The translations under genes were made by a program, and so were the position numbers. 36,782 nucleotides of DNA, taken from IMG/VR virus record IMGVR_UViG_3300044825_002951, positions 1 to 36,782 of that record; one strand, 5' to 3'. Positions 8,493 to 36,782 of the stretch are shown one piece after another (position 1 is the first letter of the stretch; each line of letters begins with the position of its first letter). This DNA is from a virus. The notes under the pieces are model-generated. The model was not told the DNA's origin. It saw nothing but the letters and a program-made list of their open reading frames with translations, and did not search any database.

Positions 8493-8702
8493 CTACCGTT
8501 TGGCAGCTTGGGCCATCGCTTGGCGGATCCGGTTGGGCGTGCGGCCAATGTGCCACCAATCGCAAAATGGGCACTTATACGGCCATATCGTTGGGTTGTT
8601 TGTGCGGCGCCTGGCCCGGTATGCAACCGCCCTAGCGGCCTTTTCATCGTAGGGGCGTTTGTTGGTGCAACTTCGGCGCCGTAATCGTCGTTTACTGGCC
8701 AT
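8493..8702 (-). CDS. Small zinc-ribbon protein
   Basis: The protein has 69 residues and starts at the ATG at 8700-8702. A very basic N-terminus (MASKRRLRRRSCTNKRPYDEKAARAVAYRARRR) is followed by YKCPFCDWWHIGRTP, a Cys-X2-Cys plus His zinc-knuckle pattern seen in many small phage proteins near terminase or regulatory genes. It probably binds nucleic acid. It overlaps the preceding gene by 11 bases in the late operon. The exact role is unknown. Confidence 0.65.
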   Translation of the reverse strand: MASKRRLRRRSCTNKRPYDEKAARAVAYRARRRTNNPTIWPYKCPFCDWWHIGRTPNRIRQAMAQAAKR

Positions 8703-9246
8703 CTGTGCCCCCACGTGATTCTATAGCCCTGGCCATTTCACGGATCCGCCCTGGCCGCTGCCACCGCCAGATCGGGCGGTGCCAGAGTAACGCCCACGCG
8801 ATAACGGCCAGGGCCAGGGCGGATCCGTGAAACGCCAGGCGGCGGGTTAATGGTTGGGAACGTTGGAAATGTGATTCACCTGGATCCGTGATTCTGCCGG
8901 CCCGCTGGACCGTACCGCCAGATCTGGCGGTAGTGGCCGCCCTCGCCAGATCTGGCGGTAGGTGCCGGCTTTTACCGCCGGATCTGGCGGTACTCGATAC
9001 TGTTTGCGTGCGGTGGCTGGCAGCCAGGGCCGCCGCTGGGCGTTTTGCTGGCAGCCGGGCCAACATACTGGCCCAACGCGCAAACGGCCCACGGCGGGCC
9101 GCTGGCGGCGGTGGCGGATAATGAAAGGCTGGCAGCCCGGCCCGGTCAAACCACGCGGCCCACGCTTCGCGGGAGGTGCAACCGCTAGCGACGCGGTAAC
9201 GTTCTATACTGGCAAGTAATTCGCTTTTCGTTTGCTTTTCGTTCAT
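8692..9246 (-). CDS. Repeat-bearing protein with C-terminal membrane segment
   Basis: The protein has 184 residues and starts at the ATG at 9244-9246 with AGGA nine bases upstream. The first 40 residues (NEKQTKSELLASIERYRVASGCTSREAWAAWFDR) look like a normal folded helical segment. Residues from about 45 to 120 are encoded by the dispersed repeat module (9006-9127) and three copies of the 20-bp palindrome (8913-8992), giving TARSGG and PPDLA motifs. The end has a hydrophobic helix (AFHGSALALAVIAWALLW) and a basic tail. It is probably an original small gene invaded by repeats that stayed in frame. The function is not recognised. Confidence 0.55.
   Translation of the reverse strand: MNEKQTKSELLASIERYRVASGCTSREAWAAWFDRAGLPAFHYPPPPPAARRGPFARWASMLARLPAKRPAAALAASHRTQTVSSTARSGGKSRHLPPDLARAATTARSGGTVQRAGRITDPGESHFQRSQPLTRRLAFHGSALALAVIAWALLWHRPIWRWQRPGRIREMARAIESRGGTDGQ
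8913..8992. repeat. Three palindromic elements in a row
   Basis: TACCGCCAGATCTGGCGGTA (8913-8932), CGCCAGATCTGGCGGTA (8944-8960) and TACCGCCGGATCTGGCGGTA (8973-8992) follow each other inside the coding sequence of the leftward gene 8692-9246. The same trio spacing recurs at 14551-14628. Confidence 0.85.
9006..9127. repeat. Dispersed mosaic repeat, copy A
   Basis: This is a copy of a GC-rich block that begins GCGTGCGGTGGCTGGCAGCC and ends GTGGCGGATAATGAAAGG. Related copies lie at 14643-14766, 26646-26738 and 27575-27669. It is the only copy fully inside a gene (8692-9246) and the most diverged in the middle. Confidence 0.8.
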
Positions 9247-9869: not shown

Positions 9870-10173
9870 CTTGCCCCCCTTCGATCCGGTCAATAAGACC
9901 TTTGAAACGTTCTATAGTGGCCTCCAACGTGCCAAGCGCCAGGATCCGCGGCTTGGGCGTTTCCCACTCCCATTGTACGGGCGGATCGTCATCGGTTGGA
10001 TCACGATCCTGCAATAACGGCCCAACCGGGAACGGGCGCCAAACGCGCATAGCCCCGATCACCTCTTGCTTATCGGCCAGCCCTGCATAAGCGGCGGCGA
10101 TCCCTTCGTCAAGCTGGCGGGCGTATTCTGCCAGCAAAAGCCCCAAGTACTTATCATTTAGGGGATCTCTCAT
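9859..10173 (-). CDS. Protein of unknown function in repressor operon
   Basis: The protein has 104 residues. The start is the ATG at 10171-10173 with a strong AGGAGGGG site five bases upstream; the in-frame upstream extension has no site and reads through other genes. It is acidic, with a helical N-terminus (LLLAEYARQLDEGIAAAYAGL), a Trp/Pro-rich middle (RVWRPFPVGPLL, VQWEWETPKPR) and a C-terminal helix. It overlaps the previous gene by four bases (ATGA). The function is not recognised. Confidence 0.65.
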   Translation of the reverse strand: MRDPLNDKYLGLLLAEYARQLDEGIAAAYAGLADKQEVIGAMRVWRPFPVGPLLQDRDPTDDDPPVQWEWETPKPRILALGTLEATIERFKGLIDRIEGGQDGE

Positions 10174-10511
10174 TGCGGCCCCTCCTTTATTCCGCCGGCG
10201 CCATCGCCAGATCTGACGGTGGCGCCAAAATCCATATCTAGATCGGGATCGTAATCTGGCGGCGGCCCGATCTTTGGTGCCACCGCCCAACCGCCCAAAA
10301 GCCAACCGCCGTAAAATTCATCGACATGATCGATTACAAGCTTATGCAATTCATTGTGATCGACCTGGCCCGATCCGTCATCGCTACAGTTAAAGATCAG
10401 CGTAATCGGCTTCGTCTCTATTCCGCCGTGCGTGCGGCGGCGCCCTTTCCTATGGCGCTGGCGGCTGATCATGGCGTTAACCACAACCGGGATCGTTTTG
10501 TTCTCTTCCAT
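10170..10511 (-). CDS. Protein of unknown function in repressor operon
   Basis: The protein has 113 residues and starts at an ATG after AGGGG. An N-terminal beta segment (KTIPVVVNAMIS) is followed by a basic loop (RQRHRKGRRR), then ITLIFNCSDDGSGQVDHNELHKLVIDHVDEF. The DDGSGQVDHNELHKL stretch resembles an EF-hand-like acidic loop, though I would not call calcium binding from this alone. The last 15 residues include VRSGDGAGG, encoded by a variant of the dispersed palindrome (10204-10221), so the C-terminus was probably modified by it. Confidence 0.6.
   Translation of the reverse strand: MEENKTIPVVVNAMISRQRHRKGRRRTHGGIETKPITLIFNCSDDGSGQVDHNELHKLVIDHVDEFYGGWLLGGWAVAPKIGPPPDYDPDLDMDFGATVRSGDGAGGIKEGPQ
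10204..10221. repeat. Palindromic element, one-base variant
   Basis: ATCGCCAGATCTGACGGT, a copy of the dispersed palindrome with one changed arm base, lies in frame near the 3' end of gene 10170-10511. Its left flank (CCGCCGGCG) is shared with the copies at 14551 and 36417. Confidence 0.7.
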
Positions 10512-12136: not shown

Positions 12137-12685
12137 ATGATGTACAAAAATTATGCAATCGTTGTTCATAGCGGGCTTTTGGGCTGGTATTGTCGTTACT
12201 GGCGGATTGACAAAGTTGATCCCAATAGCGGGATCCCGCTTATGGAATATCAAACGCCCGTTGGGCGCGAAATTCGCCAACTTGCCATCAATGACGCGGT
12301 GTCCGCCGTCGATTTTATTATCCGTAATGAAAACCAAGCGGGCCAGGCTAGCCCGGATCCGCTAGATGTCGCGTACAATCGCCTATCCGCTGACCAATTC
12401 GACGAAGGATCGGCCCTGGCCCTTTATGATATCGCTTGCTCATTGCGCAGAATGACCCGGCTTACCGCGGTGGCTGGCAGCCAGGGCCAGGGCGGCCCCG
12501 TGCGCAATCCGCCGCCGGGCGCCGTTGTAATCGCCAGGCTTTTGGACGATATCACACGGGCGCTTACTGGAATGGAAAGCCACGAATTAGCCAGCGATCT
12601 GGCCTTTCAAGTTGACAGTTATAAGGCGCTGATAACGGCGGCTATCGTGCCCAAGCTACGGGAAATTTTAGAATCTCTCAAATAA
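12137..12685 (+). CDS. Last rightward early gene, unknown function
   Basis: The protein has 182 residues and starts with tandem ATG codons after AAGGA. It has an N-terminal beta segment (NYAIVVHSGLLGWYCRYWRIDKV) and then helices. A low-complexity insert AVAGSQGQGGPVRNPPPG (about residues 112-129) is encoded by the TGGCTGGCAGCCAGGG motif that also occurs in the dispersed mosaic repeat. C-terminal helices follow (VVIARLLDDITRALTGM). The stop codon lies inside the terminator stem. The function is not recognised. Confidence 0.65.
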   Translation: MMYKNYAIVVHSGLLGWYCRYWRIDKVDPNSGIPLMEYQTPVGREIRQLAINDAVSAVDFIIRNENQAGQASPDPLDVAYNRLSADQFDEGSALALYDIACSLRRMTRLTAVAGSQGQGGPVRNPPPGAVVIARLLDDITRALTGMESHELASDLAFQVDSYKALITAAIVPKLREILESLK

Positions 12686-12724
12686 GAAAGCCCGATCCGG
12701 TATACCCGGATCGGGCTTTCTTAT
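12682..12724. terminator. Bidirectional terminator
   Basis: A perfect 19-bp stem (12682-12700 with 12706-12724, five-base loop) has AAGAAAG/CTTTCTT at its base, giving U-rich tails in both directions. It ends the rightward early genes and the leftward lysis cassette. Confidence 0.9.
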
Positions 12725-12975: not shown

Positions 12976-13524
12976 TTAAAGCGTCTGATCGCCGTCGCTG
13001 GCCGCCTTGGGCCGCCTGGCCCGCTTGGCTGGCCCTGGCGGAAGATCGACGGCGGTAACGGGTTTACCAACGAAACCCGCGTAACGCATAGCGTCAACCG
13101 CGTCAATCATGGGCGCCGCGGCTGGCGTTGGCGTTGGCGCTGGCCCTGGCTCTGGCTCTGGCGTTGGGCCTGGCCCGGCTGGCCCGTCATCGCCGCCCGT
13201 GTCGCCATCCTCAAGCCAGGGCCGCCACCGCGTTTCGTTTAGGGTATAAACGGCCAGATTGATCAACTCAATCAAAAGCTTTTCCGGGATCCAGCGAAGG
13301 ATCCCCGCCTCTCTACAACGCAAGATCACCCAATCTAGTTTGGCTTTGCCCGCGTCACTGCCTAACATCTCTTCGGCGTCATAGATCAGCGATAGGATCA
13401 GATCGCGGAACTCTGCCAGCTTAGCGGGATCATTACCGTAGATCCATCGCTTGAACGCATAGACAAACGCCAGAAAGACCCCTACAAAAAGAAACGAAAT
13501 AACGATTGTCTGAATATCTGCCAT
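12976..13524 (-). CDS. Holin, LL-H type
   Basis: The protein has 182 residues. One N-terminal membrane helix (IQTIVISFLFVGVFLAFVYAF) is followed by the LL-H holin-like body: LAEFRDLILSLIYDAEEMLG, GKAKLDWVILRCREAG and IPEKLLIELINLAVYTLNE. A Pro/Gly/Glu-rich linker (TPEPEPGPAPTPTP) and a basic tail follow. The order membrane helix, GKxKxD helix and closing helix is typical of Holin_LLH, which makes inner-membrane lesions at lysis. It overlaps the next membrane gene by 43 bases. The long tail is unusual for the family. Confidence 0.75.
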   Translation of the reverse strand: MADIQTIVISFLFVGVFLAFVYAFKRWIYGNDPAKLAEFRDLILSLIYDAEEMLGSDAGKAKLDWVILRCREAGILRWIPEKLLIELINLAVYTLNETRWRPWLEDGDTGGDDGPAGPGPTPEPEPGPAPTPTPAAAPMIDAVDAMRYAGFVGKPVTAVDLPPGPAKRARRPKAASDGDQTL

Positions 13525-13886
13525 GTGGTCACCCCTTCATGAATTGTCAAAAAACGATAGATAGCCATTACATGGGCCGCCGTTGCCAAAAATAAAATAG
13601 CGCCCATCATGGCCCGCAATACTGCGATAGAATCCCGGTACTGATCGATAGACAAGGGCGGATTAACGCCCGTTGACCGGGCCAGCAAATAAACGATCAG
13701 GGCTTCGTTAAACCCAAGCGCCCAATCAAGCCCGATCAGCGCCTGGATCCAAAACGACATAGCACGCGGCATTAGAACAAGTTTTCTACGCACGATAAAC
13801 CAATAAGCCGCCTTGGCGAGTAGATAGCCCGTGAATAACGCGACGTTGGCGGGATAGATCAGATCTAACCATTCTAAATTTGTCAC
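13482..13886 (-). CDS. Membrane protein of lysis cassette
   Basis: The 134-residue protein has three or four hydrophobic segments: LIYPANVALFTGYLLAKAAYW, IQALIGLDWALGFNEALIVY, VLRAMMGAILFLATAAHVMA and possibly a last short one (WQIFRQSLFRFFL). It lies between and overlaps the other two membrane genes of the cassette. It could be a second holin or antiholin; no catalytic motif is seen. Confidence 0.65.
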   Translation of the reverse strand: MTNLEWLDLIYPANVALFTGYLLAKAAYWFIVRRKLVLMPRAMSFWIQALIGLDWALGFNEALIVYLLARSTGVNPPLSIDQYRDSIAVLRAMMGAILFLATAAHVMAIYRFLTIHEGVTTWQIFRQSLFRFFL

Positions 13887-14341
13887 AAGCCGCCGCCCCT
13901 ACCCAACCAAAGGATCAGAAATACCGCCGGGATCGCCAGGAATAAAAGACCCACAACCGCCAGGAAAACCCATTTGTCAATCGAAACATTATTACGCGTA
14001 TAACTAATTAACAGTGCTTCCATGTTGGCTATTCTCGCATCAAGGGCCGCCGCAAATTCAACTTCCTTTTCGATCCGCCTGATATCGGCCTTTAGATCCT
14101 TGACCTGTATTGTTAATCCCGGCTCACCAAGTTGGGATCCGCCTATGTATTGTTCAATTGTGCGGATCCGTTGCTTAGCGTCGCTTAATTCATCTAAGAT
14201 CCGTTGGGTTAAGTTATCACCCGGATCCTTACCTACCTCGATCTTCGTCAAGTCGCCGCCCGAAATATCCCCAATTTTGATCGGGCTATTCCTGATCGTG
14301 GATCTTCCGCTAGCTATTTCAATTTCTACTCCATCGCTCAC
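13883..14341 (-). CDS. Coiled-coil protein with C-terminal membrane anchor (XhlA-like)
   Basis: The protein has 152 residues. The start is GTG (14339-14341) with AAAGGGG five bases upstream. A polar N-terminus is followed by a coiled coil (QRILDELSDAKQRIRTIEQYI and VKDLKADIRRIEKEVEFAAAL), and one C-terminal membrane helix (WVFLAVVGLLFLAIPAVFLILWLG). This coiled-coil-then-anchor layout resembles hemolysin XhlA-type lysis proteins (family knowledge). It is the first gene of the membrane cassette. Confidence 0.65.
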   Translation of the reverse strand: MSDGVEIEIASGRSTIRNSPIKIGDISGGDLTKIEVGKDPGDNLTQRILDELSDAKQRIRTIEQYIGGSQLGEPGLTIQVKDLKADIRRIEKEVEFAAALDARIANMEALLISYTRNNVSIDKWVFLAVVGLLFLAIPAVFLILWLGRGGGL

Positions 14342-14403: not shown

Positions 14404-14449
14404 GGCGGCCCGATCTGTGAATCACCGGTGATTCACAGATCGGGCCGCC
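14404..14449. repeat. 46-bp perfect palindrome (left)
   Basis: All 46 bases are self-complementary around ACCGGT. The core arm is GATCTGTGAATCACC with GC-rich outer arms. Its core is almost identical to that of the palindrome at 14763-14808. There is no U-run, so a simple intrinsic terminator is unlikely. Confidence 0.9.
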
Positions 14450-14642
14450 AGGGCGTTGGCCATGTGCGCAGCTCAATCACAGCTCCCACCGCCGGATCTG
14501 GCGATACTCGATACTAGCGCCCTGGGTGATTCACAGATCCGCCGGCGTCATCGCCGGATCTGGCGGTAGTGGCCGCCCTCGCCACATATGGCGGTAGGTG
14601 CCGGCTTTTACCGCCATATGTGGCGGTATAGGACCGCGGCGG
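14450..14642. repeat. Non-coding repeat cluster with four palindromic elements
   Basis: I see no gene in 14342-14820. This part holds copies of the short palindrome at 14488-14505, 14551-14567, 14580-14596 and 14609-14628. The last two carry an ATATG centre (CGCCACATATGGCGG and CCGCCATATGTGGCGG), each still palindromic and mirror images of each other. The first 55 bases are shared with 27419-27479. Confidence 0.8.
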
Positions 14643-14766
14643 GCGTGCGGTGGCTGGCAGCCAGGGCCGCCGCTGGGCGCGTTTTGGTGGCAGCCGGGCC
14701 AACACACGGGCCAGGGCCAGAAAACCCCACGGCGGCCCGCTGGCGGCGGTGGCGGATAATGAAAGG
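14643..14766. repeat. Dispersed mosaic repeat, copy B
   Basis: This is the longest copy of the block beginning GCGTGCGGTGGCTGGCAGCC and ending GTGGCGGATAATGAAAGG. It abuts the right 46-bp palindrome and lies between genes. Confidence 0.85.
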
Positions 14767-14808
14767 GGCGGATCTGTGAATCATCGATGATTCACAGATC
14801 CGCCCCTT
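14763..14808. repeat. 46-bp perfect palindrome (right)
   Basis: This is a second perfect 46-bp palindrome centred on ATCGAT. It has the same GATCTGTGAATCA arm as the left one but different outer arms (AAGGGGCG). It lies 12 bases downstream of the last codon of the leftward early operon. Confidence 0.9.
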
Positions 14809-14820
14809 GGGCCTGGCCGC

Positions 14821-15145
14821 CTATAGCAATATGGCGGCCAGGATTGCCGGATCGTTTGTTTGGGCCTGGCAGCCGCTAGCCAGGATCGGCGCGATCCCTT
14901 CGTCAAAGTCGCGTAACACTTCGTCAACGTCAACCCCAAAGCGGGCGGCCAGGGCGCTGGCGATCTTCGCTTGCATATCGGGCGGGATCGCTTGTACATC
15001 CAACATATAGGCTAAGGAATTCGGGCGGCCTGGAAAGTTACAGAGTACCGGGATTAAGCTTTTGATCGGTAGCGTAGCCGTACCAATGGCGCCCTCCCAA
15101 AACTGCTTACGCGTTGGATCCTGGATCGTGATCGTTGGTTGTCAT
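14821..15145 (-). pseudogene. Small phage protein gene broken by a 7-bp duplication
   Basis: The frame from 15141 to 14821 is open and encodes TRKQFWEGAIGTATLPIKSL, VLCNFPGRPNSLAYMLDVQA, then a helix with ALAARFGVDVDEVLRDF. This is the pattern of a small soluble phage protein I have seen in many genomes, but there is no good start codon. Two tandem TGGATCC/TGGATC units (15115-15127) precede it. Removing one 7-bp unit joins it in frame to MTTNDHDP from the ATG at 15145, giving a sensible start. The remaining in-frame ATG at 15006 lacks a ribosome site and would omit about 45 conserved-looking residues. It is either a real frameshift or an assembly error. Confidence 0.6.
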
Positions 15146-15631: not shown

Positions 15632-15914
15632 AATTCCCCCTAATATGCTCAATCTGCTTACCAAGATTATCGACATTATCCGCCGCGTCAAAGGCTTGAA
15701 CGGCGGCCCGCAATAGTGCAAATGTTGTTTGCGCCAAAATTACTTGGCCGTTGGCCAATTCGATCCGGGCGGTAACTGCACTTTTACCGCCCTCCGTGCC
15801 GTTGGGCAGCCTGGCTAGGCCCACAAAAGCGCCCTCGACAAAACCCCTTTCTTTGAGATCTGGCCAACAATTATCACCATTCAAGACAATTGTAAGCGGT
15901 GTTAATACTCGCAT
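15609..15914 (-). CDS. Small early protein of unknown function
   Basis: The protein has 101 residues; AAAGGGG lies five bases before the ATG. A beta-rich first half (ITARIELANGQVILAQTTF-type strands, FVEGAFVGLARL) is followed by an alpha-helical second half (LLRAAVQAFDAADNVDNLGKQIEHI) and an acidic end. It overlaps genes on both sides by 13-23 bases. It is encoded just after the first C5-methyltransferase. The function is not recognised. Confidence 0.6.
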   Translation of the reverse strand: MRVLTPLTIVLNGDNCWPDLKERGFVEGAFVGLARLPNGTEGGKSAVTARIELANGQVILAQTTFALLRAAVQAFDAADNVDNLGKQIEHIRGNYGDSDDT

Positions 15915-17011
15915 TTATCCCCTTTCACCAAATGAGTTAATAGATTATCAGAAAGCCAACGCACCAAGGGCACGATCACCCCGTCCCCAAGCAAGTGATA
16001 GGCCGCCCCATAGTTTGCGGGCAAATGATAGCGATCATCAACGCCCATCAAGCGGGCCAACTCTCGCGCAGTAAATAGCCGCGAACGCACGGCGCCCGCT
16101 TCGATGTGTAACAGAAACTGCTTACTAGATCCGCCGTTGCCCGTGCGCAAACATCCCGCCAGCCCATCTAAGCGTATTTCGGCGCGCTGGCCCTCTTTGC
16201 GCGTGCGGCGGTAAACGGTGGCTACCGTCGGGCGCTGGCTGGCGCTGGCTTCGCTTATTTGCTGGCGGTGGCGCTTGCTCATGATTCCGAGTAGGCCCGC
16301 CGTTTGGCTGCCACTATGCCAGGCGGCGGGATCCGGCTCTAGCAGATCGGCCAGCGTGTTGGCCATCGGCGGCGGCGGTGGCAGCCGCCACCATACCCAA
16401 CGCTCACGGGCCGCCGCTGGCAGCCGCCACCACGCGCCAATTAGCCGCTTTGTTGCCCCAAATAGATCGCCAGGGCCAGGGCTGATCAACGCGGCAACGG
16501 CGGCCAGGGCTGCCACCACAAAGATCCGCGGGCGGGATTGCGGAACGAAAGCCGATCCGTTAATCTCCAACGCTCCCACCGCATAGCCAGCGCGGGCCAA
16601 CAAAGCGATCAGGGCGTTAAAATCCTGGCCGCCCTTTGATGATAATAGGCCCGTGACATTTTCCAGCACAATCACGGGCGGCGGCTGGCCAGCGTCGATC
16701 CGGGCTTGGGCCAGCCGCCAAAAGCCGGTAAACGCCCCGCTTTGGCTGCCAGCCAGCCCGCCACCTGGCCCGGCTACGCTGAGATTTTGACAAGGGAATG
16801 ACGCCCACCATAGATCCGCCGGGCCTGGCAGATCGGCGGCGGTTAGCTCGAAAACATCCCCTAGCCGAAATTCAGCCGGGCCAAAATTCTGGACATAGGC
16901 GGCGCCCTTTTCCGGGCTTATGTCGTTTGCGAACTGGCAGATCCAGCCCGGCCCCAATCCAAGCCGCACCAAGCCACCACCACAAAAGAACTCGTAAAAG
17001 GTTGGTTTCAT
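15902..17011 (-). CDS. C5-cytosine DNA methyltransferase
   Basis: The 369-residue protein transfers methyl from SAM to cytosine C5 in a specific site. Motif I is FFCGGGLVRLGLG (8-20), motif IV FPCQNLSVAG with catalytic Cys74, motif VI ENVTGLL (117-123) and motif VIII QSRPRIFVV (about 155). The target-recognition region (about 200-300) and a motif X-like end (HLLGDGVIVPLVRWL) complete it, so it appears intact. The target is unknown; CCWGG-, GGCC- and GATC-containing sites are abundant in this genome. It starts with an ATGA overlap in the early operon with two more methyltransferases. It probably protects the phage from host restriction; regulation of own sites is possible. Confidence 0.9.
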   Translation of the reverse strand: MKPTFYEFFCGGGLVRLGLGPGWICQFANDISPEKGAAYVQNFGPAEFRLGDVFELTAADLPGPADLWWASFPCQNLSVAGPGGGLAGSQSGAFTGFWRLAQARIDAGQPPPVIVLENVTGLLSSKGGQDFNALIALLARAGYAVGALEINGSAFVPQSRPRIFVVAALAAVAALISPGPGDLFGATKRLIGAWWRLPAAARERWVWWRLPPPPPMANTLADLLEPDPAAWHSGSQTAGLLGIMSKRHRQQISEASASQRPTVATVYRRTRKEGQRAEIRLDGLAGCLRTGNGGSSKQFLLHIEAGAVRSRLFTARELARLMGVDDRYHLPANYGAAYHLLGDGVIVPLVRWLSDNLLTHLVKGDKCEY

Positions 17012-17439
17012 GGTTGCGTTACCCGCTCCACTTTGGCCCGCCCTTCATAGATTGCGGTCATCATATCGCGCCAGGTATCAAAACCTTGGGCCTGGGCCTT
17101 TTCATCATAGCGATCCACCGCCGCCGCTTTGGTCGCTGGCTGGCGGGCCGATTTTACGAAATCGATCTCCAGTATGAAAAGATCACAGTAACGGCCAATC
17201 GGTGATGGATAGTAGCCCGCCGCTATCGGTGGCGCGTCATCACGCGCGGTAAAGCCTTGTTTGCTGGCCCCGTTGCGTGTGACTAACGATAGTTTGAATT
17301 TTGCCAATGTGGCGGCCACCTTTTTTCGTTTATGCTCTGACCATTGCCAATTTTCACCCTTTAGGCCCGTAACCACCGATTGCAGATCGTCAATATACGA
17401 TCCGATCACTTTTACAAGGGCGCTTCTATCTTTATTCAT
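17008..17439 (-). CDS. Small protein between two methyltransferases
   Basis: The protein has 143 residues. The start is the ATG at 17437-17439 with AGGA eight bases upstream. An N-terminal helical part (LVKVIGSYIDDLQSVVTGLKG) is followed by a basic stretch (SEHKRKKVAATLAKFK), a beta part (YCDLFILEIDFVKSAR) and helices (FDTWRDMMTAIYEGRAKVERV). It is located between two C5-methyltransferase genes and overlaps the first by four bases. It may assist modification, but no family is recognised. Confidence 0.6.
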   Translation of the reverse strand: MNKDRSALVKVIGSYIDDLQSVVTGLKGENWQWSEHKRKKVAATLAKFKLSLVTRNGASKQGFTARDDAPPIAAGYYPSPIGRYCDLFILEIDFVKSARQPATKAAAVDRYDEKAQAQGFDTWRDMMTAIYEGRAKVERVTQP

Positions 17440-17467
17440 GTTTCGATCCTTTCTGTTATGCGTGAAA

Positions 17468-18271
17468 TTACCCGGACTGATCTCGCCTGGCCGTTTCACG
17501 CTTTTTCTGTAAACGCGTTCTACATGCGGCGGTGGCGGCCTTTTGATCGCCCCGGCCCGCTAGTTGGCGCCCACAACCGCACGCGCACAACCGCCCGCCG
17601 GTTTCGCCCGCCAGGGCTGCCCGGATCGCCCTGGCCATCATTTCGCCCATCGGGATGGGCACGCCATTTCCTACCGCCGCATAACGGGCCGCCGTTCTCA
17701 TCCCTGGCAGCCGAAAGCCCGGATCCAGCCCCTGCAATGCGCAGAAATCGCCCCAATTGCGCCGATCTACGCGGCGGCCCTCTGTCGCTAAGCAAGCGGG
17801 CGCCAGGGCGGCCCCGGCTGGCGCTGGCTGCCGTTGCGGTGCCAACTGCAACCCGGCCAGGCTGCCAAACTGAAAATGACGTAACCGGGATTGTGTCAGC
17901 CCGCAATTTTTAGCGTTTAGATCCAGCCGTTGAACCGTGTAGCCGTCAATCTTGATATCGGGCACGCGATCCACGTTTTCACATAGCCACCAAGCCGGGC
18001 GGGCTTCGATCACAATCCGCTTAAACTCTTCCAACATGGCCAGCCCGTAACCGGTTGGTGGCGCCCGCCTGGCCCGGCTAAAATCCTGGCAAGGCGGGCC
18101 GCCAATAATGCCATCAAAGCGCCCGGTTGGAACATGAAAGCCGCGTATATCTTGCCCCCATAGCAGATCCGGCCCACGTACCACACAAAACCCGGCCAAC
18201 TCAAAACCCCGGCCCAATAGGCCAATGCCGGGGAAAATTTCAAGGATCAGATCGGTTAACTGGAAACTCAT
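17468..18271 (-). CDS. Second C5-cytosine DNA methyltransferase, compact, with zinc tail
   Basis: The protein has 267 residues, small for the family. Motif I is LEIFPGIGLLGRGFELAG (10-27), motif IV GGPPCQDFSRAR with catalytic Cys61, motif VI CENV (97-100), motif VIII QSRLRHFQFG and motif X AVGNGVPIPMGE (199-210). The C-terminal 40 residues, with CACGCG at 229-234 and Cys250, form a short Cys-rich basic extension that I know from other phage methyltransferases. The target-recognition part is short. AGGGGA precedes the ATG. It differs from the first enzyme enough to suggest a different target. Confidence 0.88.
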   Translation of the reverse strand: MSFQLTDLILEIFPGIGLLGRGFELAGFCVVRGPDLLWGQDIRGFHVPTGRFDGIIGGPPCQDFSRARRAPPTGYGLAMLEEFKRIVIEARPAWWLCENVDRVPDIKIDGYTVQRLDLNAKNCGLTQSRLRHFQFGSLAGLQLAPQRQPAPAGAALAPACLATEGRRVDRRNWGDFCALQGLDPGFRLPGMRTAARYAAVGNGVPIPMGEMMARAIRAALAGETGGRLCACGCGRQLAGRGDQKAATAACRTRLQKKRETARRDQSG

Positions 18272-18803
18272 AAAACAGATCCCCTATCCCCAAGGCTTCG
18301 ATCACCGCTCGAACCGTGTAATCATAGGCGCCGTCAAACTGTCGCCCGGTGCCATCGCGGGCGGTAATTTCCCGCAAACGATCCGCCACCCGCTTAAGCT
18401 TTTTAGAATCCCTTTTGGTGGCATAGCGGAACCGTTGCGCCGTGTCACTCTTCGACGATACCGCCGGATCTGGCGGTGGTGCAGCTTGGCTGGCCAGGGC
18501 GCTGGCTTGGCTGTCTTCTTTTGCCCGACGGGCCAGCGCCATAGATTCAGATTCTGATCGCAATGTTTCCGCCACAAAACGATCATCAACAAACCTTTGC
18601 AATAGCCTATCGATCAAGCTGGGATCTGTATCTGCATTGTACTGTTGCCATTTATCCCAACCGTTAACCCTTTCACTGGCCACCGTCAACGCGAAGATCA
18701 GCATACGAAATTCATCTTGATTTACTCTAAACAAACGTTCCAAATTTGCGGCCCGCGTTGGCCGCGCTTCGCGCTCAATACTGGCATTAAACAAACGTTC
18801 CAT
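18240..18803 (-). CDS. Early protein of unknown function
   Basis: The protein has 187 residues; AGGGGG precedes the ATG. It is helical, with an Arg/Glu-rich N-terminus (MERLFNASIEREARPTRAA), a core FRMLIFALTVASERVNGWDKW and a middle Ala/Ser/Pro linker. The linker PPPDPAV is encoded by an in-frame copy of the dispersed palindrome (18459-18478), between residues likely to be separate domains. The C-terminal part (LKRVADRLREITARDGTG, then a helix) may bind nucleic acid. The function is not recognised. It lies between the adenine and cytosine methyltransferases. Confidence 0.6.
   Translation of the reverse strand: MERLFNASIEREARPTRAANLERLFRVNQDEFRMLIFALTVASERVNGWDKWQQYNADTDPSLIDRLLQRFVDDRFVAETLRSESESMALARRAKEDSQASALASQAAPPPDPAVSSKSDTAQRFRYATKRDSKKLKRVADRLREITARDGTGRQFDGAYDYTVRAVIEALGIGDLFYEFPVNRSDP
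18459..18478. repeat. Palindromic element inside gene 18240-18803
   Basis: TACCGCCGGATCTGGCGGTG is read as a Pro-rich linker. The frame differs from that used in the methyltransferase copy at 19367. Confidence 0.85.
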
Positions 18804-19592
18804 TTAGCCCCCTAACCCGCTTTCCTGAATTGCGGCCAATACTGCCAGCCGTTCTAATCGTTCCATCCTGGCCCAACCCGCCGCCCATCGGCGCTTACGC
18901 TTGCGGATCCGCTCGCGTTGGCGGTAGTCATCGCCCAAATAGCGATAATCATGTAACTGATCGGGCGGATCGTAATTCATCCAAACGAACTCAATTGCGG
19001 GCGTGCCCCCACGCGTGATCGTGCGCGTGCTATCTTTGCGCCAGCCGGGTAACAACTTGTCATACAGATCGCTTTGGTAGCCGCTGATCATCACCTTGCA
19101 CGGTAGCCCGACCAAAACGGCCAATAGCGCCCGGTGATCGGCTTCGCTGTATTCGTGTGCATAGATGGGCGCTTGCTGCTTGCGCGTGTAAAGAAGATAG
19201 GGCGGATCGGAGTAAACGAACTCGCCGCCCTTCCAATCAACGGTTTGCAACCATTTGACAGAATCACAACAAAGGAAACGATAGCGGGCGCCACTGGCCC
19301 CGGTGATCTCGCTGCCAGGTAACTGGCCCTGCCTGGCAGCCGCCCAATCTGCAAGCCGCCCTCCAGTACCGCCAGATCTGGCGGTATGGTCCACTGGCAG
19401 CCCTGGCCCTATTTCGTGGCGCCAGTCGTCGATCACGGTTTCATCCAGATCGATCCCAATGTTGATCCGGGCGGGCCGCTTGTAGCGCATGATTGCGCAT
19501 TGTCCTAAATGTGTGCTGATAAAAACATCATGGGGCGGGATCTGGTTAATTAGCCATTGATAAACCGCCCCTTTACCGCCTGGATAGCTCAT
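18804..19592 (-). CDS. Dam-like N6-adenine DNA methyltransferase (D12 class)
   Basis: The 262-residue protein methylates adenine in a short site, commonly GATC in this family. The N-terminus SYPGGKG (2-8) and motif IV YSDPPYLL (DPPY 129-132) are intact, with YQSDLYD and GTPAIEFVWMNY later. The glycine loop usually reading EPFxGGGA appears as STHLGQCA (26-33), with glycines replaced. This may weaken SAM binding or reflect a subgroup. A palindromic element (19367-19386) encodes TARSGG (70-75) in a loop between motifs. Overlaps with both neighbours are ATGA-type or adjacent. The genome is rich in GATC. Confidence 0.85.
   Translation of the reverse strand: MSYPGGKGAVYQWLINQIPPHDVFISTHLGQCAIMRYKRPARINIGIDLDETVIDDWRHEIGPGLPVDHTARSGGTGGRLADWAAARQGQLPGSEITGASGARYRFLCCDSVKWLQTVDWKGGEFVYSDPPYLLYTRKQQAPIYAHEYSEADHRALLAVLVGLPCKVMISGYQSDLYDKLLPGWRKDSTRTITRGGTPAIEFVWMNYDPPDQLHDYRYLGDDYRQRERIRKRKRRWAAGWARMERLERLAVLAAIQESGLGG
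19367..19386. repeat. Palindromic element inside the Dam-like gene
   Basis: This is a perfect 20-bp copy, TACCGCCAGATCTGGCGGTA, in frame. Its right flank TGGTCCACTGG is shared with the copy at 36376, which shows that more than the palindrome itself was copied. Confidence 0.9.
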
Positions 19593-28131: not shown

Positions 28132-29496
28132 TTAGCGCCACGGGCTAGGCGTGCCCCGTGTGCGGATCGTATACTGGCCGCTGGCGGCTTCGTATTCGCT
28201 TTCTTCCACATAGAACCGGTTAGCGTTGGCCAACTGGCCGATCATGCGCTTACCGATATCTCGACAATAGCCTAAGATAAATTCGCCAGGCTGCAACGGG
28301 TAGCCGTTGGCCCGGTAGAATCGATTGTTTGAGAAAATGTATTGATCTTCACTGCGGTAAACCTTTTCGTAGCGGAAAACGCCAATTTGCGGGATCACCA
28401 TGCGCCGGGTATCGCCGTCTTGATCGGCTATGGCCAAAAGGGCCGCCAGCTTATCATATGCGTTGACCGGCTCCGTATACGGGTTACTTTCAATCGTGTT
28501 ATCGTCTTTGATATCGATCACGTTGATACATTCCATCAGGCTGGCCACCTGGCCCACCTGATCGGCTATTGTGGCGTTGGTTGTGCTGCTTTCGTCAAAG
28601 ACCCGCCACCCCGCGCTATGGATCCACCCTTTACACAAAAGCCGGGCGCTTACCCCTTGCCCTTCGTCAAACCGCGTTTCTGACTGGATGGCAGCCAGAT
28701 CCGCCACAATCCGATCCCGCAAGGCTTCGGCCTGATCGGCGCTGGCGTCTCCGTAAACGTACAATAATTCATGATAGCCATAGCGCGCTACGCTTTCGCC
28801 ATCGGTGGCGGGCGTAGTATAGGCGGCGGTGGCGGTTGTAGATCCTTCGGCCAATTCATTGTAGGCAACGATCACGCGATTTGCAAGCCCATCAAGCGTT
28901 ATGGACAAAATAAGATCGTCGATCTGCACTTCGATCCCGTTTACGAAGCCCGACCAAACATCGGTTTTAATCGGGTTGTAAATCGATACGGGCATTCTTG
29001 GCAACTCTGGCAGCCAGTTGATAATACTGTTTAGCTGGCCCTCTACCGCTATTTCGGCTTCGTTGCTGACCCCTAGATCCTGCCAACTCCAACGAATGGG
29101 CCGCATGATAAAGGGCGGGTTAACGATGGGCAAAAAGTCAAACGCTGTCAAGGTGGCGGTAAAATCGGCCAGGCTGGCCAATGTGGGCGGGTTGGGTTGC
29201 GGTGGCGCGATCTCAACGTAAACGCCCGTTTTGGTGGCTTGTAGCGTGCCGCGCAACTCGACATAGGCGCCGACCTGGGTAACCCGTTCCGTAGGTTGCA
29301 ACTCAACGTATACGCCCGCTTGCGTAACACGATCCATTGTGTTGGTAAGCTCGACATAAACGCCCGCTTTGGTGACCTGATCCTCTATTGCCGTCGGTAG
29401 CTGTAACTCAACATAAACGCCCGTTTTGGTGTCGTGTAGGTTGGCCCCGCCCTCTTCGACATAAACGCCCGCTTTGGTGACCCGCTCGTTAGCCAT
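28132..29496 (-). CDS. Tail-tip / hub-like protein with N-terminal VYVEL repeats
   Basis: The protein has 454 residues. The first 95 residues hold six copies of a roughly 11-16-residue repeat with core VTKAGVYVEL (variants DTKTGVYVEL, RVTQVGAYVEL), a repeat I know from phage virion proteins. The remaining part (FLPIVNPPFIMRPIRWSWQD, MPVSIYNPIKTDVWSGFVNG, SITLDGLANRVIVAYNELAE, FSNNRFYRANGYPLQPGEFI) resembles the strand-rich body of tail hub or baseplate proteins. It is located after the tail-tip and LamG-like genes. It is possibly the tail-tip protein that contacts the receptor. Confidence 0.6.
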   Translation of the reverse strand: MANERVTKAGVYVEEGGANLHDTKTGVYVELQLPTAIEDQVTKAGVYVELTNTMDRVTQAGVYVELQPTERVTQVGAYVELRGTLQATKTGVYVEIAPPQPNPPTLASLADFTATLTAFDFLPIVNPPFIMRPIRWSWQDLGVSNEAEIAVEGQLNSIINWLPELPRMPVSIYNPIKTDVWSGFVNGIEVQIDDLILSITLDGLANRVIVAYNELAEGSTTATAAYTTPATDGESVARYGYHELLYVYGDASADQAEALRDRIVADLAAIQSETRFDEGQGVSARLLCKGWIHSAGWRVFDESSTTNATIADQVGQVASLMECINVIDIKDDNTIESNPYTEPVNAYDKLAALLAIADQDGDTRRMVIPQIGVFRYEKVYRSEDQYIFSNNRFYRANGYPLQPGEFILGYCRDIGKRMIGQLANANRFYVEESEYEAASGQYTIRTRGTPSPWR

Positions 29497-29499
29497 AGG

Positions 29500-30537
29500 T
29501 TAGAAACTTCCCGCGCTCTTGATAATTACTTCGGCGCTATTTACATCGCTTTCGCTCCAACTTCCGCCGCCGGGCTTCGTGGTTTGTCGCTCCATAACCG
29601 GGCCGTAACTGGTTGTTAGTGCCTGGCTGGATCCTAAGCTGTCTGTACTCGAAAGGCGGCTACCAAGAATCAACCGGCTATCGGTGCCCGCGTCGCTTTT
29701 CTTTGCCCACGCTACAGGAATCACGGCGCCCACCACATAGCCCACGGGTAGGGTAAAGCTGGCCATTGCGTAATAGTCCAAAAGGTTAGCCGCCGCCGCT
29801 GAAACATACGTGCTATCGTCATCGGGCGCGCCATCATCCACCGCCGCATAGTTGGATCCCGCGCTGGGCGTCCAACCCGCCGCGTGACCGGCCCCGTTTA
29901 CAATCTTAAAATCGAACCGGTAAGAGTTAACAGGCGCGATAGTCTCGCCTACTGTGCTTTCAACGTAGAAATCATCAAAATAACAGTAGTTGCCCCAACC
30001 GTTTGTACTGTTGCGCCCGCCAAAATATACCGCCGTGATCCCGGTGCCGGTGTCACCGCTATAGGTTAGGATCTCAACGCCATCTAGATAGACCTTGATC
30101 GTACCGCTGGCGTTGGAATAGACATGGATCCCAACGTGGAACCATGTGTCCGTTGTAGAAAAACCAACGCTAGCGGCGCCAACGCTGGCCACCTTTGAGG
30201 CGCCTACATACAATTCAAGATCGCCGGTATCGCCTTTCCATTGTAGCGTAATGCTGGTTGCTCCGCTCACGGCCAAACGGAATATGATCGCCTGGCTGGC
30301 GCTGGTTGCGGTGGCTAGGCCCGCATGATTGAGAAAAACCCCGGCCCTGGCTTGATTCACGCTTGAAAAGGCTTTCCCGCGCGGATAGCTGGCGGCGCCA
30401 TAGCGAAAAGAATAGGATCCCGTTTTGGCTTTTGTGTTACTGATCGCACAGCTTGACGCGCCAAGGCTGGAAAGCTCTTCACATTCGTTTATATGTTGCA
30501 TTTCGGCGCCAGATTGCCAGATTCTAGTTACTGTCAT
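29500..30537 (-). CDS. LamG/concanavalin-like tail protein
   Basis: The protein has 345 residues; a G-rich site precedes the ATG. Residues about 35-195 form a jelly-roll lectin-like domain: TGSYSFRYG, TWFHVGIHVYSNASGTIKVY, LDGVEILTYSG and CYFDDFYVES. A second beta domain follows (FTLPVGYVVGAVIPVAWAKK). This is typical of host-binding or structural tail proteins. It lies between the tail-tip and hub-like genes. The ligand is unknown. Confidence 0.65.
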   Translation of the reverse strand: MTVTRIWQSGAEMQHINECEELSSLGASSCAISNTKAKTGSYSFRYGAASYPRGKAFSSVNQARAGVFLNHAGLATATSASQAIIFRLAVSGATSITLQWKGDTGDLELYVGASKVASVGAASVGFSTTDTWFHVGIHVYSNASGTIKVYLDGVEILTYSGDTGTGITAVYFGGRNSTNGWGNYCYFDDFYVESTVGETIAPVNSYRFDFKIVNGAGHAAGWTPSAGSNYAAVDDGAPDDDSTYVSAAAANLLDYYAMASFTLPVGYVVGAVIPVAWAKKSDAGTDSRLILGSRLSSTDSLGSSQALTTSYGPVMERQTTKPGGGSWSESDVNSAEVIIKSAGSF

Positions 30538-36359: not shown

Positions 36360-36375
36360 GATCTCACCTGGCGCC

Positions 36376-36485
36376 ACCGCCGGATCTGGCGGTATGGTCC
36401 ACTGGCCGCCGGCGTCATCGCCAGATCTGGCGGTGCTGGAGAAATGGCCAGGCGCGATCTGTGAATCACCGGATAATCACAGATC
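36376..36485. repeat. Repeat cluster between head-closure and gp10-like genes
   Basis: It has two short palindromes (36376-36393 and 36417-36434) and a degenerate copy of the long inverted repeat, GATCTGTGAATCACC-GGATAATCACAGATC (36456-36485). The latter covers the stop codon of the head-closure gene. Flanks match the copies at 19367 and 14551. Confidence 0.85.
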
Positions 36486-36782
36486 CGGCCCGCTCGATAC
36501 ATTTGACGCGTAACGCGGTCATCCAATCGGTATGGGCTTCCACGCTCATAACTTCAAATGTGCGGCTATCGATCACGATCCGATCTGTCATCTGCACATC
36601 TTGATTGTAGGCAAAGGTTACAACCCACGGGATCGGCGTCTCTGTCCTGTCACCTCTTACCCCTGGCCTGGCGCTTTGGGCATTGCGGCCCAAACGACAA
36701 TTTACCCCGGTGGCGTGATCGCTATAGCTGACCGTTTGCCCGCCGCGGCTATCGGCGGGATCGCTTTTGCGCTGGATCGTAC
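36466..36782 (-). CDS. Head-closure / head-tail joining protein, C-terminal part
   Basis: This is the continuation of the gene that starts at 191. The segment encodes a conserved-looking strand pattern, WVVTFAYNQDVQMTDRIVI then SRTFEVMSVEAHTDW and MTALRVKCIER. This is the beta-rich half typical of small head-completion proteins (known family trait, my assignment). The last residues (about RAGSVIIR) and the stop lie inside a degenerate copy of the GATCTGTGAATCACC inverted repeat at 36456-36485, so the C-terminus may have been rewritten by that element. Annotating the linear window alone would give a falsely short 75-residue protein from a TTG at 36693. Confidence 0.75.
   Translation of the reverse strand, partial: TIQRKSDPADSRGGQTVSYSDHATGVNCRLGRNAQSARPGVRGDRTETPIPWVVTFAYNQDVQMTDRIVIDSRTFEVMSVEAHTDWMTALRVKCIERAGSVIIR
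36656..36782. repeat. Right copy of 127-bp terminal overlap
   Basis: Identical to positions 1-127. It joins the end of the window to its beginning and restores the reading frame of the head-closure gene that is otherwise cut in two. Confidence 0.9.

Follow-up and report, generated by a model that had tools for sequence, protein, structure and literature searches.

Corndog, a tailed phage of the Cluster O mycobacteriophages, carries a dispersed 17-bp palindrome that forms one family with invariant arms at 34 sites, as described in PMC4351075. The regulatory-looking repeats known from other phages include the stoperators of Cluster A, which are asymmetric and 13 bp long, and the inverted repeats called ESAS of Cluster K, which are tied to start codons (PMC4351075, PMC3203893). 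REP, BIME and REPIN sequences are short palindromes, mostly extragenic, that occur in inverted pairs and mosaic clusters, and some of their families are perfect palindromes (PMC3116915, PMC8266576). Their described features include a conserved GTAG-type tetranucleotide before the palindrome (PMC8266576). Rickettsia palindromic elements (RPEs), about 150 bp long and mostly located in genes, can lie in frame inside protein genes, according to a review (PMC10969869). At the level of the records listed, our literature search found no REP- or RPE-like elements that multiply within a phage genome.

Here, we describe dispersed hairpin repeats in IMG/VR record IMGVR_UViG_3300044825_002951, the whole 36,782-bp sequence of which was analysed and is referred to below as the window. 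Phages have compact genomes, from which long perfect palindromes usually disappear; the 10 long hairpins and 15 short palindromes retained here are therefore unusual.

A temperate tailed phage with clustered DNA methyltransferase genes

The record is a temperate tailed phage that encodes a portal, a large terminase, a tape measure, a major head protein, a head morphogenesis protein and a tyrosine integrase. Its 127-bp direct terminal repeat indicates a circular assembly. Three genes for DNA methyltransferases, of which two are C5 and one is D12 adenine type, cluster at 15902-19592; one C5 protein is apparently partial (267 aa, matching part of its family only). The D12 enzyme is Dam-type. GATC is abundant across the genome (563 sites, 15.3 per kb), while CGATCG is found twice and GCGATCGC never. 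Because this density is genome-wide, GATC within palindrome arms is not special, and we set aside high GATC content as a cause of the palindromes.

Further repeats include CTGGCC-rich 42-bp tandem repeats at 243-471, within the minus-strand gene 195-569, and a 32-nt repeat at 29200-29487, present in six diverged copies spaced 45-57 bp apart at the start of the minus-strand gene 28132-29496. A 13-bp inverted repeat at 24965-24997 (CTTGGGGATAACT/AGTTATCCCCAAG) stands immediately before the integrase gene and is a possible attachment-site arm or operator. A small protein with an LPD29 domain is encoded at 25951-26517, and a 126-codon gene with homologues in L104 and L111 spans the circular junction (36466-36782 plus 1-194).

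Two perfect 46-bp palindromes with mirrored differences

The first-pass annotation had reported two perfect 46-bp palindromes bracketing a non-coding region. Both are present, with 23-bp arms, no loop and 100% complementarity:

14404-14449, minus strand: P1, perfect 46-bp palindrome with a tail rich in T on the minus strand, TATCTTTTCTTTATTTTT; the next minus-strand gene (13883-14341) lies 62 bp further on
14763-14808, minus strand: P2, perfect 46-bp palindrome with the tail TTTCATT, 12 bp past the stop codon of the minus-strand ORF 14821-15006

Among 30 first-order Markov versions of the window, the maximum arm length of perfect palindromes ranged from 7 to 10 bp. As RNA, P1 is predicted to fold at -43.8 kcal/mol (z -10.0) and P2 reaches a z of -7.5. 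The stretch from 14404 to 14808 is indeed non-coding: a gene caller based on codon usage gives a single weak ORF there, with a score of 9.4, compared with 25.5 for the neighbouring 14821-15006 and 29.8 for 13883-14341.

An arm common to both palindromes, GATCTGTGAATCA, had also been noted and was recovered in each. It occurs exactly seven times in the window (14412+, 14429-, 14527-, 14771+, 14788-, 27379- and 36456+), and allowing up to 3 mismatches raises the count to 23 sites, against 5.0 (sd 2.35, largest 12) in 100 shuffles. The outer arms differ between P1 and P2 and are each self-complementary, as had been claimed: 6 of 23 arm positions differ, and all six differences are mirrored in the opposite arm. 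When 12 changes were placed at random 200,000 times in a crude simulation, the outcome was never fully mirrored. The mirrored differences thus support the earlier proposal that the palindromes are kept and have a role.

Mosaic non-coding stretches made from hairpin repeats

P1 and P2 are the best-preserved members of a palindromic set scattered through the genome. The degenerate and half copies named in the first-pass annotation are real (36451-36490, 27375-27398 and 14526-14543), and weaker copies of the P-type arms occur elsewhere in the window. The third perfect palindrome listed below, at 27847-27890, and a numerous 18-bp family are additions to that annotation. The partial copies outside the 405-bp stretch and the other long hairpins are as follows, with the strand given where a feature has one:

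36451-36490, minus strand: degenerate P copy, 88% identical to P1 ungapped, holding the stop codon (36466) of the minus-strand gene that crosses the circular junction
27375-27398, plus strand: half copy of P1 (centre and right arm), 7 bp past the stop codon of the plus-strand gene 27089-27367
8736-8832: related long hairpin with 21-bp perfect arms, TTTCACGGATCCGCCCTGGCC, and an 18-mer-like palindrome (8763) inside; RNA fold z -6.9
27847-27890: third perfect palindrome, with 22-bp arms, flanked by A and T tracts as two-way terminators typically are, ahead of convergent minus-strand genes
12682-12724: hairpin with a 19-bp perfect stem, between the convergent genes 12137-12685 (plus) and 12976-13524 (minus)

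The two half copies, at 27375 and 14526, end near the palindrome centre. The protein of the junction-crossing gene has 126 residues, and two homologues stop at about residue 118. All 10 hairpins with a net stem score of at least 14 lie outside genes or at gene edges, and each of 10 simulated genomes contained none.

The 405-bp stretch from P1 to P2 is one of several mosaic non-coding stretches made from hairpin repeats, pieces of which recur at about 8.7-9.1, 26.6, 27.4-27.7 and 36.4 kb. Three kinds of block are involved, namely the P-type arms, the 18-bp palindrome ACCGCCAGATCTGGCGGT and a GC-rich 94-nt repeat present in four copies:

14450-14762: mosaic interior of the 405-bp stretch, with the P half copy 14526-14543, 18-bp palindromes at 14488, 14550 and 14610, the hairpin 14580-14625 and the 94-nt repeat 14644-14737
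8906-9128: mosaic module with 18-mers at 8914, 8942 and 8974 and the 94-nt repeat 9005-9098; 8916-9128 is 86% identical to 14.55-14.77 kb
27401-27670: mosaic module with a half copy, 18-mers at 27463 and 27542 and the 94-nt repeat 27573-27666; it matches part of the 14.4-kb stretch at 77% identity
26645-26738: lone 94-nt repeat touching the stop codon of the minus-strand ORF 26738-27013

The match of the last of these to the interior (26646-26738) is 97% identical. The whole 405-bp unit has no second copy anywhere in the window, and the other sites carry parts of it with different borders. These several repeat families are nearly absent from genes. Folded as DNA, the 405-bp stretch (z -12.75), its interior (z -4.46), 8700-9130 (z -7.31) and 27368-27680 (z -3.94) were each more stable than all of 100 shuffles. 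The 94-nt repeat alone folded no better as RNA than its shuffles did (z -1.56, -0.99, 0.09 and -2.55).

An 18-bp palindrome family inside and outside genes

The 18-mer ACCGCCAGATCTGGCGGT is a dyad in which the half-sites ACCGCC/GGCGGT flank a variable centre. We found 15 copies at up to 3 mismatches, where 0.04 were expected. Only 3 of the 15 lie in confident genes, although such genes cover 85% of the window (P = 3e-8), and the other 12 lie outside. The most informative single sites are these:

36370-36441: paired inverted 18-mers (36376 and 36417), the most REPIN-like copy, sharing 31 nt with the copy in the methyltransferase gene and 30 nt with that in the 10.2-kb gene
27031-27048: isolated perfect 18-mer between the divergent HTH genes 26738-27013 (minus) and 27089-27367 (plus), the best-placed candidate operator
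19367-19386, minus strand: 18-mer palindrome in a 20-bp perfect form, read in frame in the D12 adenine methyltransferase gene 18804-19592
18460-18477, minus strand: 18-mer within gene 18240-18803, at frame offset 2
10197-10226, minus strand: 18-mer with its own self-complementary outer arms, within gene 10170-10511, at frame offset 0

Reading frames through the three gene-internal copies have offsets 0, 2 and 0, which leaves no conserved peptide motif; since two different frames are used, it is the DNA that recurs rather than the peptide. The shared run extends beyond the 18-mer both between the methyltransferase copy and the intergenic 36376-36406 (31 nt, 97%) and between the copy in gene 10170-10511 and 36406-36435 (30 nt, 93%). 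The GIDxD and DPPY motifs bracket the methyltransferase copy, and the segment between them has 83 residues here and 46-63 in the 77 of 82 homologues for which it was measured, so that this loop is at least 20 residues longer than in all 77. The other five homologues (L129, L130, L131, L132 and L175) escaped the motif used by the script and received no loop length. One of them, L131, has by eye a long, unrelated loop at the same site, which marks the loop as a variable place. Insertion of the 18-mer into the methyltransferase gene would be a good but not exclusive reading of these sequences. For one of the other two genes that bear an 18-mer (18240-18803 and 10170-10511), no phage homologue was found.

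Inverted 18-mers are paired at 8912-8993, 14580-14625 and 36375-36435. Neighbouring 18-mers were not more complementary to each other than any two copies (12-17 of 18 positions, against a mean of 15.5 over all pairs). The copies at 14580 and 14610 are each imperfect alone and perfectly complementary to each other (17/17).

Searches for relatives

Protein searches gave 11 portal loci, the best 80 of 596 capsid loci and the best 80 of 135 methyltransferase loci (another search with the methyltransferase gave none); for the tail protein 29500-30537 no relatives were found by protein search. No palindrome with an arm above 10 bp occurs in the 11 portal loci or in the 80 capsid loci (891 kb, best 80 of 596). 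One portal relative is in a genome contig labelled uncultured Spirochaetia, and among 100 genomes of its phylum a single weak 32-bp match was seen. Because no relatives bearing the repeats were found, movement of the repeats was never observed directly.

Nucleotide searches covered several collections. The palindrome and 94-nt repeat patterns had no match in viral_contigs, nor did the 28-mer in genome_contigs. The 18-mer pattern gave 10 single matches in viral_contigs, on contigs that lack both long palindromes and a high GATC content, and we regard these as chance or unrelated. The 405-bp stretch matched nothing among plasmids, and the surrounding 701-bp stretch matched nothing among phages. 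Queried against 36 whole records, the 405-bp stretch gave weak matches in 8, comprising 13 pieces of 14-30 bp, and the 27.85-kb palindrome matched none of the same 36. The best match to the 405-bp stretch, in G103, is attributed to chance, as that record shares only the methyltransferase and lacks long palindromes. Rfam returned seven weak matches (E 0.14-3.1), all under the curated scores and none convincing, and a search of the methyltransferase against the PDB found none.

Arm changes, message ends and a proposed origin

The concerted change seen between P1 and P2 recurs in other hairpins. Those at 8944 and 14580 have an identical 12-nt loop, pair at 16/17 and 17/17 positions, and differ at three pairs that all stay paired (read by eye, two are changed on both sides and one goes from G-T to A-T). 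At 27542 the outer arms of the copy pair with one another; the homologous copy at 14610 has just the right flank in common with it. Repeat copies thus have a common inner core and copy-specific outer arms that are always self-complementary. These arm patterns and the half copies fit fold-back copying or a break at the hairpin tip, and would look the same whether arms were gained or lost.

Positions relative to genes bear on function. Stop codons precede P2 by 12 bp and the 27375 half copy by 7 bp, and another lies within the 36451 copy. P1 and P2 have the GC-rich stem followed by a U-tract that characterizes an intrinsic terminator, with tails that are T-rich rather than pure T, and they top the minus-strand list of terminator-like sites, which numbers 44 against 26.0 (sd 5.0) in shuffles. 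Given the sites at or after stop codons and the T-rich tails of P1 and P2, we propose long RNA stem-loops at message ends. Textbook termination is uncertain because the P1 tail begins 4 nt past the stem and the P2 tail is weak. A message-end role cannot cover all copies, since P1 is not directly after any gene and the hairpins at 8.7-9.1 kb, located between divergent genes, follow none either.

We lean towards the reading that this temperate phage carries a dispersed set of REP/BIME-like hairpin repeats, the 46-bp members of which are terminator-like or 3'-end hairpins, with arms kept by fold-back template switching, selection or both; on the evidence assembled here, we regard it as somewhat probable. 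Fold-back copying at the hairpin, an intra-strand template switch, would create new arms or repair old ones, and selection may further keep them perfect. The repeats would spread within the genome through copying of modules, possibly by a host enzyme acting in trans, and the 46-bp members would form long RNA stem-loops at transcript ends, where they could be terminator-like or protect the 3' end. Both the mechanism of spread and the function are what we infer from the repeats. Template switching makes and mends perfect stems (PMC8794818), and an origin of the kind described there is expected to leave perfect stems and mirrored changes of several bases, as between P1 and P2; that source concerns RNA genes, and its extension to phage palindromes is ours.

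A bolder form of this reading, which we offer as speculation, is that phage-borne hairpin elements multiply in the genome, enter genes in frame and grow copy-specific self-complementary outer arms by repeated template switching, making the phage a breeder and carrier of REPIN- or RPE-like elements. If movement is confirmed, the phage would be a vehicle for REP-like elements. The mirrored differences between copies also offer a clean, small system in which to set template switching against selection in the upkeep of hairpins.

Alternative explanations

The main rival sees in the 18-bp palindrome, and possibly also in the 46-bp palindrome, the site of a putative phage regulator, scattered over the genome so as to silence prophage transcription as in Cluster A mycobacteriophages. 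The dyad with its half-sites and variable centre suits such an operator, as do the 15 copies, mostly intergenic with some in genes, and the perfect copy at 27031-27048, which sits between divergent HTH genes beside a promoter-like TTGACA-17-TATTCT. Corndog provides a precedent for a dispersed palindrome partly located in genes (PMC4351075). However, a regulator site does not require arms of 23 bp whose outer parts change yet always remain complementary, nor does it account for the flank beyond the dyad that gene-internal copies share with intergenic ones, or for the copies at 14580 and 14610, imperfect singly yet fully complementary to each other. We consider this explanation possible but rather unlikely; regulator binding stays a live rival, mainly for the 18-bp family. 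Less probable still is that P1 and P2 are ordinary intrinsic terminators with unusually long perfect stems, their shared arm reflecting duplication of one of them. Their T-rich tails point this way, together with the perfect-stem hairpins with A/T tracts at 12682 (between convergent genes) and 27847 (towards minus-strand genes), but the 18-mer family, the gene-internal copies, the mosaic modules and the hairpins between divergent genes are left unexplained.

The first-pass annotation had also suggested that the palindromes might be the ends of a miniature element. Parts of the 405-bp stretch do recur, as a miniature transposon with palindromes at both ends would lead one to expect, but the whole unit is single, and its other copies are partial with differing borders. 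A full palindrome, and not a single terminal inverted repeat, stands at each end, and no direct target duplication flanking 14404-14808 was seen by eye, all of which makes such a transposon very unlikely. Long perfect palindromes are also the targets of protelomerases and are present in some origins, which gives a replication origin, a telomere-resolution site or a recombination site some initial appeal. The suggested resolution site found no support: the phage has a tyrosine integrase and several copies of the palindrome, and no ResT/TelK-type domain was found, the search with PF16684 (telomere resolvase) giving 0 matches in the phage and a signal in only 1 of 14 controls. GC skew drifts in a constant direction through the window without turning at 14.4 kb, and we regard this whole group of readings as most improbable. 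Finally, the record is metagenomic, and fold-back chimeras can yield perfect palindromes. Here, though, the two palindromes are not the same and have unique flanks, their differences are mirrored and decayed copies exist, and an assembly artefact is barely credible because the flanks are particular to each copy and the 127-bp direct terminal repeat fits a circular assembly.

Comparison with known systems

Returning to the reading as a dispersed hairpin-repeat set, the repeats can be compared with REP, BIME and REPIN sequences, with which they share short palindromes, mosaic clusters and a mostly extragenic placement (PMC3116915, PMC8266576), the last evident in the 12 of 15 copies outside confident genes. 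In contrast to REP and REPIN families with their RAYT transposases, there are only about 15-20 copies, in a phage, and no RAYT domain was found there (PF01797, Y1/RAYT transposase: 0 matches in the phage, with 5 of 14 controls giving a signal). By analogy, the set may work like a REPIN, the likeness lying in the repeats and their extragenic placement; we do not claim identity as a REPIN. The in-frame position of palindromes inside protein genes recalls the Rickettsia palindromic elements (PMC10969869), which are far longer than the 18-mer and reside mostly in genes, in contrast to 3 of 15 copies here. Stoperators and ESAS resemble the repeats in being regulatory-looking and spread across phage genomes; unlike the asymmetric stoperators and the start-codon-linked ESAS (PMC4351075, PMC3203893), the 46-bp family tends to stop codons.

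The feature is real and unusual, a variant of dispersed phage palindromes with a REP-like organization, and its distribution is closest to that of the 17-bp repeats of Corndog. Both are tailed phages with short dispersed palindromes, many of them intergenic, and about one third of the Corndog copies are in genes (PMC4351075). Where Corndog is described as having one family with invariant arms, this phage has several families, changing self-complementary outer arms, perfect 46-bp forms, mosaic modules and longer shared flanks.
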